From Gongronella butleri (taxonomy: Eukaryota; Mucoromycota; Mucoromycetes; Mucorales; Cunninghamellaceae), in assembly GCA_025201375.1 (NCBI GenBank), contig JAIWZP010000006.1:310001-374000 (forward strand): a stretch of DNA of 64,000 bases, given 5' to 3'. This document shows, one piece after another, positions 711-8,593 of this stretch (position 1 is its first letter; each line of letters begins with the position of its first letter). The notes beneath the pieces were generated by a model. The model ran no database searches and had not been told where the DNA came from. It saw only the letters and a program-made list of their open reading frames with translations. Position numbers and translations under genes: made by a program.

Positions 711-1950
711 ATGGCTGAAATCAGACGCAAGTTGGTTATTGTTGGTGATGGTGCTTGTGGCAGTAAGTGAAAAAAAAAGCGCAAAAGGCGAAAATCGACA
801 AATTGGCGCAATTAACTAATTCGTGTGTCTTTTTTTTTTTCGTACAGAGTAAGTGCTGCTGGCGTGTTTGACGAAAGCGCCGTAGAGGGAGCGACTGTGA
901 GGCGCCAGTGCAGCCTGTGCTCGTGAGAGAGAAAGGACACAAAAAAAGGAAAAACAGGGAGGGGAAGCAAACGACCAGGGGAAGGAAGGAAATTGACCCT
1001 GTATTTCTATTATTTTCGTTGTTGGGTTCTTAGGGTAAGCCCAAAAGCTTTAAGCAAGGAAAGGGAGACGAGGACTCTCACACTGCCCAATTCGCGGCTT
1101 TTTTTTTAAAAAAAAAATCATAGACGTGTCTCTTGATTGTGTTTTCCAAGGGCACCTTCCCCGAGTTTTACGTGCCCACCGTGTTTGAAAATTACGTTGC
1201 GGACGTCGAGGTCGATGGCAAGCACGTCGAATTGGCCTTGTGGGATACGGCTGGTAAGGAAAATAGGAAAAAAAAAAAAAGTTAGAGAGAGGACGACTCA
1301 CCCTGCTTCTTATTCTTCACTAGGCCAAGAGGATTATGATCGTCTGCGACCATTGTCATACCCGGATTCGCATGTCATTCTGATTTGCTATGCGGTCGAT
1401 TCACCTGACTCGCTTGAAAATGTGCAAGAAAAGGTAAAAATCGCTTTTAAAACACGGGCCACGGACTCAATTTTTCGTTTCTAGTGGATTTCCGAGGTGC
1501 TGCACTTTTGCCAAGGCTTGCCCATCTTGCTCGTTGGCTGCAAGAAGGATCTGCGCCACGACCCCGCCACCATTGAAGAGCTGAAGCGCAATTCGCAGCG
1601 CCCCGTGGCTATGGAAGAGGTAAAAAGCTCTCGAATTGAAAAGATTAGGCCGCCTTCATTAGGCGACTACGCATTTATGCGCTTTTTTTTTTTTCTAATT
1701 GTAGGCGGCCGCCGTTGCCCAGCGTATTGGCGCGTACAAGTATTTGGTAAGAATCAAAAGGGATGGGCGCCATGGGTGCAATCACATGTCTCTCTGACAG
1801 TGGGAATCCCTTTTTTTTTTTTTTTATCATTGATAGGAATGCTCTGCCAAGACGGGCGAAGGCGTGCGCGAGGTGTTTGAGCACGCGACGCGTGCGGCGC
1901 TGATGGTGAACAAAAAGAAGAAGAAGAGTCATTTTTGCAAGGTGCTGTAA
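711..1950 (+). CDS. RHO1: Rho-family small GTPase (Rho1 type), with two predicted one-nucleotide exons
   Basis: This is a 194-residue Rho GTPase, the membrane switch that controls cell-wall glucan synthase, actin and polarity. Predicted exons: 711-762, 848, 1034, 1124-1253, 1324-1433, 1485-1619, 1705-1746, 1837-1950; all phases close exactly. Visible motifs are the P-loop GDGACGKTCLL, the effector region [36 protein letters not shown], and the G4/G5 boxes GCKKDL and ECSAKTG. A lysine-rich tail ends in CKVL, a CAAX box whose final Leu predicts geranylgeranylation. The P-loop Lys codon must be built as A (762) + A (848) + G (1034), each base in a different exon with consensus splice sites on both sides. 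A single intron 763-1123 would shift the frame. Family assignment is very secure; the microexons are an inference from the frame. Confidence 0.93.
848..848 (+). other. Predicted one-nucleotide microexon (A), second base of P-loop Lys codon
   Basis: Flanked by an acceptor (T-tract, cgtacag, ends at 847) and a perfect donor (gtaagt, from 849). It supplies the second base of the AAG codon in GKT of the Rho GTPase. It is needed because exon 1 ends in phase 1 with GGC A and the next long exon begins exactly at ACG (Thr). Confidence 0.65.
1034..1034 (+). other. Predicted one-nucleotide microexon (G), third base of P-loop Lys codon
   Basis: Flanked by an acceptor (gttcttag, ends at 1033) and a donor (gtaagc, from 1035). 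It supplies the third base of the AAG codon. Neither agAGgt nor agAAgt occurs between 763 and 1123, so no canonical two-base exon could replace the pair of single-base exons. Confidence 0.65.
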
Positions 1951-5816: not shown

Positions 5817-8593
5817 ATGACCCAGCAGTCCATAGCTACCCACGAGGTTGAGCCCATCACCTTTAAATACCAAGACAAGCTGCCCAAGCTACCCATCCCC
5901 GATCTTAGAGAGACGGCGGATCGATATCTGTCGGCGCTTCGCCCTTTGCAGGTAAGAAATCCTAAAAAATTGGGAAGCCATGTGGCGTGCCATTGGCGAC
6001 GATATGAGAGACGAACTTACGCCCCCATTTTCCCGCAGAGCGATCAAGAGCATGAAATGACCAAGCGCTCTGTCGAGGCATTTATGGAGCAAGAGGGCCC
6101 TATGCTTCAAGAGAAGCTGCAGACATATGCCACGGACAAATCGTCTTACATCGAGGAATTCTGGTAAAAAGGAACAAACAAAAAATGAGTCGTGTGGATG
6201 AGATCTCGTGGCCAGGCAATCTGACCTTTTTTTTTTTTGTTTGCCTCCCCCTCCCCTTTTTTTTCAAATCAAGGTACGACTCGTACTTGCAATACACGGA
6301 CCCCGTGGTGCTGAACCTGAATCCATTCTTCCTCTTGGAGGACGACCCCACGCCGCAGCGCAATGACCAGATTGTGCGTGCATCGTCTCTGATCGCGTCG
6401 ACCGTGACTTTTGTGGATGCACTTTTCCGCCAGACGCTTGAGCCCGATTCTTTCCGCGGTGTGCCGCTCTGCATGTCGCAATTCAACCGATTGTTTGGCA
6501 CGGCGCGTGTGCCTACCGAGGAACACGGGTGTTATATGGCAACTGCGCCGCGCGATCTGTCCAAGCACATTGTTGTCATGGCGCATTCGCAATGCTACCA
6601 TTTTGACGTGTTTGACGACGATGGCAATATTGCCATGACGGAAAAGGAGATTGCGAACAACCTTCGTGCCATTGTGCGTGACGCGAGCCAGGTCGACGTC
6701 AACGACATTGCGAAAAATGCGATTGGCGTGCTCACGACGGAAAATCGACGCAATTGGGCGAAATATCGCACGTCGCTGCAACGCGACCCCGTCAACCGCG
6801 CGGCGCTGCAGGTCGTCGAGTCGGCGCTCTTCATTGTGTGCCTCGATCACGTCCAGCCCACCGATATTGAAGACCTCAGTACAAACATGCTCTGTGGCAC
6901 GTACAATTTAGATCGCGGCAGACAGGTCGGCACATGCACTAATCGCTGGTATGACAAGCTTCAGGTAATCTCGATGATCAACTCGATAAATGACCATCAC
7001 ATGAAATCCGTGAAAAAAGAATTATCAATGATTGATTTTTTCTTGTTTTCCTTTTTTTTTTTTTTTCTCCCACTCTTCCTCTGTAGATCATTGTGTGCAA
7101 AAATGGTAGTGCAGGCATCAATTTCGAACACACAGGTACGTGAATTGCACAAGAAAATAAGAAAAAAGAAAAAAAAAACGCATGGCCCCTTTTGTTTACG
7201 TGATCAGGGCCCCTGTGACAAGCTTATGTAAACGCGGACTTTTTTTTCTTCAATTAGGGGTCGATGGTCACACCGTGCTGAGGTTTGTTTCAGACATTTA
7301 CACGGACACGATCTTGCGCTTTGCAAAGACGATCAACAGCCAGACAAAGTCGATTTTCCACTCGCAGCGTAAGCACGCGAGCCCGCCGCGATCCGCTGCG
7401 GGTAGTGGCAAGGCGCGACGCGACAGCGAGCCTCCCGAGTACGATGGCAACCCGCGCCGCATTGAATGGAACATGACGCAAGAAATCACTCTCGGTGTCC
7501 GCTATGCTGAGACGCGTCTTTCTGATCTCATCTTGCAAAATGAAGTCAAAGTCCTCGAATTCACAAAATACGGCAAATACTTTATCACCGACATGAAAAT
7601 GAGCCCAGACGCCTTTGTCCAGGTCAGTTTTTGAATAGAGAAAAACGCATCGTGTCGCGTCGTTTTTGCTTTTTTTTTGCTGATTTTCCATTTTTTCTAT
7701 TCTTTTTCTCTCGCTCAGATGGCTTTCCAAGCGGCATACTATGGCCTGTATGGCAAGGTGGAGTGTACGTACGAGCCCGCCATGACCAAGGCATTCTTCC
7801 ACGGGCGCACTGAATCGGTGCGCAGCGTCACCGAGGAATCTCTGCGTTTTGTCCAACTTTTCCACAGCGACGCGCCTGCCGCCAACAAGCTCAATGCGCT
7901 CCGCGACGCGCTCAAGAAGCATACGCAGCTGACCAAGGATTGTGCGCGCGGCCACGGCCAGGATCGACACTTGTACGCGCTCGAATGCCTGTTTGACCGC
8001 CTCCACAAGGGCGAAAACAAGCCGCTCATCTTCACCGATAATGGCTGGCGCACCATCAACCACACTGTCCTCAGCACGTCCAACTGTGGCAATCCTGCGC
8101 TCAGACTCTTTGGTTTTGGCCCTGTGGTCTCGGATGGCTTTGGCATCGGCTATATTATCAAGGAAGACGGCATTGCCGTAAGTGATCCCAAGAGGAATGG
8201 ACACGTGGGGGGGGGAGAGGGCTTGGCGGGGATCGGTGACACCGTGGGAAAGTAGTTCCTGACGCTTTTTTTTTTTTTTTTTTTTTGCCATTTTTCATTA
8301 AGTTTGTCGCGTCGTCCAAGCATCGACAGACGGAACGCCTGTTGGCCACTCTTGAAGCCTACTTGTTGGACATCCGTCAGCTGCTCATCAACGAGAAATA
8401 CCCAGGCGGTATGTCGCAGCGGCAACGACTGCTTGCCATGGAAGACGCACACAATGCCGTCAATGGCTACTCGTACTTTGACAATGGCGAGGACGATTAT
8501 TCCGCCACCACCTCCGCTTCCGACGACAATAATCCGTCCCCACGATACCATCGCAAGGTCGGAAAGCGTCTCGTCATCCGCGCTACCGATTAA
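5817..8593 (+). CDS. Carnitine O-acetyltransferase, probably cytosolic
   Basis: Transfers acetyl groups between CoA and carnitine, allowing acetyl units to move between cytosol, peroxisomes and mitochondria during growth on acetate or fatty acids. Seven exons: 5817-5951, 6039-6163, 6274-6964, 7087-7135, 7258-7622, 7719-8177, 8303-8593, giving 704 residues. The choline/carnitine acyltransferase hallmarks are visible: LPKLPIPDLRETADRYL at the N-terminus, the catalytic-His block NFEHTGVDGHT built across the intron at 7136-7257, and the C-terminal STSNCGNPALRLFGFGPVV followed by DGFGIGYIIKEDGIAF. No mitochondrial presequence and no peroxisomal C-terminal tripeptide (it ends RATD) are seen, so I favour the cytosolic Yat/FacC type over Cat2. 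An Arg/Ser/Pro-rich insertion lies near residue 325. Confidence 0.93.

Follow-up and report, generated by a model that had tools for sequence, protein, structure and literature searches.

How is the lysine codon of the P-loop completed in a Rho1 GTPase gene whose recognisable exons hold only one of its three bases? The question arises from a window of 64,000 nucleotides of DNA of the soil mould Gongronella butleri, G000:C67:310001-374000, the whole stretch that was analysed, in which RHO1 lies at positions 711-1950. Its first exon ends in GGT GCT TGT GGC A at 762, with gtaagtg adjoining, and the next recognisable exon opens with the codon for Thr19. The initial annotation proposed that the two missing bases of the AAG codon come from two consecutive exons of one nucleotide each, A848 and G1034. 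The exon edges and both bases agree base for base, in position and letter, with what had been proposed, and the lengths given for the three introns are correct (Table 1). When both bases are included, the model is in frame and encodes 194 aa. The product has a Ras-fold domain (Pfam PF00071, 177.9 bits), and its residues 1-192 align with the solved Rho1 structure 6jik_A, GDGACGKTCLL included; the domain, the GDGACGKT P-loop and the match to a solved Rho1 identify the gene as RHO1. Further along the window, positions 5817-8593 hold a carnitine acyltransferase gene whose product matches a Gongronella butleri protein with 100% identity along 704 aa.

Table 1. Coordinates of the RHO1 model in the window and of related features elsewhere in the genome. 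Slashes, here and in the text, mark splice boundaries; the one- and two-base exons are predictions.
Feature	Position	Strand	Remarks
RHO1 exon 1	711..762	+	17 residues and base 1 (A) of the Lys18 codon
RHO1 intron 1	763..847	+	85 nt, gtaagt...tacag, Lys18 phase 1
Putative branch-point-like TTAACTAAT in RHO1 intron 1	812..820	+	by eye
RHO1 one-nucleotide exon A	848..848	+	Lys18 codon base 2; conserved in RHO1b
RHO1 intron 2	849..1033	+	185 nt, gtaagt...cttag, Lys18 phase 2
RHO1 one-nucleotide exon G	1034..1034	+	Lys18 codon base 3; conserved in RHO1b
RHO1 intron 3	1035..1123	+	89 nt, gtaagc...tcatag, before Thr19 (phase 0); acceptor score poor
RHO1 exon from Thr19 (TCLLIVF...)	1124..1253	+	opens atcatag/ACGTGTCTCTTG
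RHO1 exon	1324..1433	+	
RHO1 exon	1485..1619	+	
RHO1 exon	1705..1746	+	
RHO1 last coding exon	1837..1950	+	includes stop codon
RHO1b	G000:C56 (locus L009)	-	paralogue on another contig
CDC42 (L011) 2-nt exons GA and AG	G000:C28:6654-6655 and 6786-6787	+	complete the GK codons
RPL24a (L084) one-base exon A	G000:C28:298237	-	AG/A, Arg
RPL24b (L091) one-base exon T	G000:C21:153644	-	CG/T, Arg
Rhomboid-family gene (L086) one-base exon A	G000:C67:386652	+	restores LPGLDNFAHIGG
PF04185 phosphoesterase (L090) one-base exon G	G000:C78:135310	-	GGTNGWYGTHFAWNYGKMNDW

The paths between 762 and 1124 were enumerated with canonical GT-AG sites and introns of at least 30 nt, and the enumeration also covered lone 2-nt exons, donors of the GC type, and single exons of up to 14 nt that keep the frame. 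A848 plus G1034 is the sole GT-AG path that adds two bases, as had been claimed, and it yields AAG, Lys18 of GKT. Each is a single base between a canonical AG and a canonical GT (cgtacag/A/gtaagt and gttcttag/G/gtaagc), and with two one-base exons the three introns would stand at successive phases. The claim that the interval holds no two-base exon is right for GT donors; allowing GC donors adds a single candidate, GC, from which no Lys results. Six single frame-keeping exons (5, 8, 11 or 14 nt) exist in the interval and none restores G-K-T: AGTAA brings a stop directly after the Lys, AGGGAGCGACT gives G-K-G-A-T-T, and the remaining four lose the Lys. The frameshift foreseen for direct joining of 762 to 1124 is borne out by a stop after 38 codons, and that foreseen for a missed microexon by a stop after 21 codons when only A or only G is skipped. 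Both bases are thus needed for frame and motif, skipping of either or both ending translation after 21-38 codons. Seven omissions and retentions were tested in all, and each stops after 18-42 codons, so RHO1 would be sensitive to splicing errors. This sensitivity is no evidence for regulation, such as the splicing switch that had been suggested; a ribosomal-protein gene, RPL24, has the same type of exon.

Enumeration alone is suggestive rather than decisive, because 8% of dinucleotide shuffles of the window interval (1623 of 20000) contain an A-plus-purine path under the bare rule AG-N-GT; for the interval of the paralogue RHO1b the count is 49 of 20000. When the donors are required to read GTAAG, the counts are 2 of 20000 in the window gene and 0 of 20000 in RHO1b. 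The pattern YAGNGTAAGY occurs 374 times on both strands of the 33-Mb genome, from which simple arithmetic gives an expectation of about 0.004 in the two RHO1 intervals together, where four are observed. Read backwards, the pattern occurs 1557 times, against 374 forward; this control differs in composition, and juxtaposed splice sites may be avoided in this genome.

The strongest evidence is that the same two letters take the same codon positions in RHO1b while the flanking introns appear to have been largely replaced. The paralogue reads GGC A/gtaagtg...ttgtttag/A/gtaagtc...atcattag/G/gtaagca...ttgattag/ACT, and A plus G is its only canonical 2-nt path, as in the window gene (hereafter also RHO1a). 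A comparison of the first 185 codons shows 168 identical residues and differences at 42 of 76 fourfold sites, with dN 0.060 and dS 1.40 (dN/dS about 0.04). All seven modelled intron positions are common to the two copies. When introns 1, 2 and 3 are aligned after trimming of their ends, the score of the real pair is reached by 18, 20 and 13 of 200 single-base shuffles, and in intron 5 by 10 of 200; introns 4, 6 and 7 retain more signal (0, 1 and 0 of 200, the intron 4 boundary being one base off). The possibility raised at the outset, that the window locus is a pseudogene beside an intact copy, finds no support here: both copies are full length, dN is small against dS, and both are split. Conservation of the one-base exons in a homologue is that seen in this one paralogue of the same genome; scans of viral and genomic contigs with the RHO1 protein confirmed no relative. 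No third RHO1-like locus stood out among 27 matches in the genome.

The splice sites were scored with a small weight matrix trained on 31 other Gongronella butleri introns that had been placed by homology, part of them in genes of the same family. With this matrix the donors at 1035, 763 and 849 of the window gene rank first to third of 20 GTs, and the acceptors at 847 and 1033 first and second of 32 AGs. In RHO1b the two microexon acceptors are the best pair among 12 AGs, and the donors take places one, two and four among 13 GTs. Not all sites are strong. The acceptor at 1123 scores -7.96, compared with a training minimum of 0.12, because a run of A sits between the T-run and the AG; acceptors one and three of RHO1b (5.98 and 2.92) and, in both copies, donors one and two (6.03 and, raw, 4.22) lie low in the training range. 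Ligation of the preceding exon improves the next donor in both copies. The second changes from AGA/GTAAGT (4.22) to CAA/GTAAGT (6.22) and the third from AGG/GTAAGC (7.91) to AAG/GTAAGC (9.68), so that, by sequence score, a usable donor forms at each junction.

The unique canonical 2-nt path, its conservation in a diverged paralogue and its best-scoring sites support the reading first proposed. Judged from the genomic sequence, A848 and G1034 are very probably two real one-nucleotide exons that complete the Lys18 codon with its second and third bases.

How might such exons be joined? The authors of a paper on the Arabidopsis APC11 gene consider exon definition across one base infeasible, with no simultaneous binding from both sides (PMC4674806). 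Since the two sides of a single base cannot be occupied together, the introns would most likely be removed one by one. We infer both the RNA path and its order, in which introns 1-3 would leave stepwise and mainly 5' to 3': i) removal of intron 1 would produce GGCAA/gtaagt; ii) removal of intron 2 would produce GGCAAG/gtaagc; and iii) removal of intron 3 would join ACG. Intron definition step by step in the 5' to 3' direction is a good fit, as the score of the next donor rises with each ligation, and the process would resemble recursive splicing with one base kept per step. The microexons could also be real and the introns be removed 3' to 5' or without fixed order. Each of the three RHO1 introns has its own sites, and PMC4674806 cites a 9-nt exon whose second intron leaves first. 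Only 5' to 3' ligation, however, improves the next donor, an argument that comes from the matrix, and we lean against the other orders while regarding them as a real possibility.

A P-loop of the same kind was found in CDC42, where two 2-nt exons would complete the codons: GG/gtaagt...aacag/GA/gtacgt...tatag/AG/gtgagc...ctag/ACC. With introns of at least 35 nt there are three canonical 4-nt paths, of which only GA plus AG encodes GKT, and the assembled protein of 191 aa aligns end to end with the solved Cdc42 structure 1grn_A. The donors of this interval rank first to third of 18 GTs with the 31-intron matrix; the donor after the GA exon, at 2.51, scores below all 31 training donors. As a control, the P-loops of 43 small-GTPase loci (L009-L019, L051-L081 and the window gene) were scanned by script. 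Ten were intact, 23 could be rebuilt by one canonical intron and ten were neither. Inspection of these last ten by eye showed that L077 is intact, L012, L017 and L078 need one intron, L079 has a 25-nt exon, and the Rab-like loci L057 (G000:C92) and L067 (G000:C37) carry VGK of the P-loop in an 11-nt exon, leaving RHO1a, RHO1b and CDC42. One of the 23 scripted joins, in L072, looks spurious; a different single intron is seen there by eye.

Further one-base exons were sought in the genome with the T-rich pattern TTTTN{0,16}YAGNGTAAGY. The 78 matches listed represent 51 distinct sites, of which 39 were inspected: four in RHO1a and RHO1b, two in the window and 33 elsewhere in the genome (12 + 20 + 1). 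Protein support was found in eight, namely the four RHO1 sites, two RPL24 genes, a rhomboid-family gene and a phosphoesterase gene. For the remaining 31, neither a crude donor, acceptor and ORF script nor inspection by eye produced a convincing reading, which is not proof of absence. The two RPL24 paralogues carry the predicted exon at the same place with a differing letter, and it completes Arg in both. RPL24b aligns without gaps across the junction with solved eL24, and the one-base path is the sole path adding one base; in RPL24a it is among three such paths, one of the alternatives likewise adding A. The Pfam score of the rhomboid gene is 123.8 bits with the base and 103.8 without, and that of the phosphoesterase 124.9 and 44.0. 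These four genes are a biased sample because they were found through the site pattern. Another possible one-base exon was noted in L031 (G000:C16:388063, minus strand), a gene named deaminase-like by eye. The Gongronella butleri genome seems rich in tiny exons.

These genes also bear on a quite different explanation, in which one long non-canonical intron (763-1121) ends before the AG and the retained AG completes AAG. Retention of AG gives GACGKTCLL in both RHO1a and RHO1b and requires no tiny exons; if a final G is retained, both RPL24 copies read Arg and the phosphoesterase gene reads Trp, just as with the one-base exons. Exons ahead of introns often end in AG, which accounts for this agreement in RHO1, RPL24 and the phosphoesterase. 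In CDC42 retention fails, since CTAG when kept brings a stop and G when kept loses the Lys, and in the rhomboid gene it gives DDF, not DNF. The intron ends would vary between genes. The explanation requires cuts before AG, against established knowledge of the spliceosome, and we know of no spliceosomal step that makes such a cut. It also offers no reason for the top ranking of the microexon sites among the donors and acceptors of the interval, or for the conservation of both in RHO1b. We therefore hold retention to be very unlikely. Least probable of all is an assembly error or a decaying gene, in which an ordinary intron was disrupted by a base change or loss near the acceptor and the match is accidental: long A and T runs around the RHO1 sites and the poor final acceptor would favour it, but it is largely refuted by RHO1b, an independent locus on another contig that repeats the layout, both copies being full length and under the low dN/dS given above.

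Returning to the one-nucleotide exons, RHO1 and CDC42 have two intron positions in common, one in Lys18 at phase 1 and one ahead of Thr19. A broad and rather doubtful proposal is that serial splicing of one- and two-base exons is routine in Gongronella butleri and perhaps in its family. The P-loop codons of both polarity GTPases would then be assembled with one or two bases kept per step. Given the common positions, the tandem microexons might go back to an ancient split P-loop that was subsequently cut further, and correct stepwise splicing would act as a gate on polarity signalling.

Single one-base exons are already known, and the tandem pair predicted in RHO1 is without precedent that we could find: among the open-licence papers listed there was no report of two consecutive 1-nt exons, consistent with the original suggestion that the arrangement is new. 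One such exon is reportedly present in placozoan mitochondrial cox1. In Arabidopsis APC11 a single-nucleotide exon was proven by cDNA and constructs, and its authors favour intron definition with stepwise removal (PMC4674806). As in RHO1, one base lies between canonical AG and GT and is required for the frame, but APC11 has one such exon, shown experimentally, whereas RHO1 would have two consecutive ones in one codon, known from sequence alone. The one-nucleotide exon of Fusarium CYP621A was inferred by comparison and then seen in RNA reads (PMC12940212). Like RHO1, CYP621A is a fungal gene whose single base fills out a codon within a conserved motif; it differs in having one such exon per gene, in an ascomycete, where RHO1 would have a tandem in a mucoralean fungus. 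Plants have 1-nt microexons in APC11 and VPS55, and rice has adjacent microexons of 5 and 12 nt (PMC8831610). These share with RHO1 that ultra-short exons are conserved, are missed by annotation and can be neighbours, the rice pair being 5 + 12 nt and that of RHO1 1 + 1 nt. Recursive splicing at ratchet points is known from long introns; its exons have zero length, and no base stays in the mRNA (PMC5126111). There, as in RHO1, an acceptor stands beside a donor and the ligated junction becomes the next donor; in RHO1, unlike at ratchet points, one coding base would be kept per step and the introns are 85-185 nt. The RHO1 sites are not classed as ratchet points because one base would remain at each step.

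If the reading is true, exons shrink to the smallest possible size twice running, in the codon under the tightest constraint of an essential-type GTPase, and RHO1 is a natural substrate for the question of how the spliceosome joins exons that leave no room for exon definition. CDC42, the two RPL24 genes, the rhomboid gene and the phosphoesterase gene are additional test cases in the same genome. Annotation easily overlooks exons this small, so a frame break within a conserved motif of an intron-rich fungus may reflect a microexon and not a pseudogene.

The Rho1 proteins of relatives were also compared. In 24 Mucorales proteins chosen among at least 120 listed, the P-loop is intact in all 24. 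A second listing of at least 120 entries showed no separate Gongronella Rho1 among the matches listed, and 24 of its records were chosen mainly for odd length. One of these, P0243 of Absidia glauca, which belongs to the same family (Cunninghamellaceae), starts at VFSKG without the P-loop. This start resembles a gene model unable to cross the split point of the P-loop, a hint only, because several other Rho1 records are truncated at similar or other places. Both P0243 and P0280 of Meredithblackwellia eburnea are deposited Rho1 proteins without all or part of the P-loop, and these losses are possibly annotation failures at introns there.
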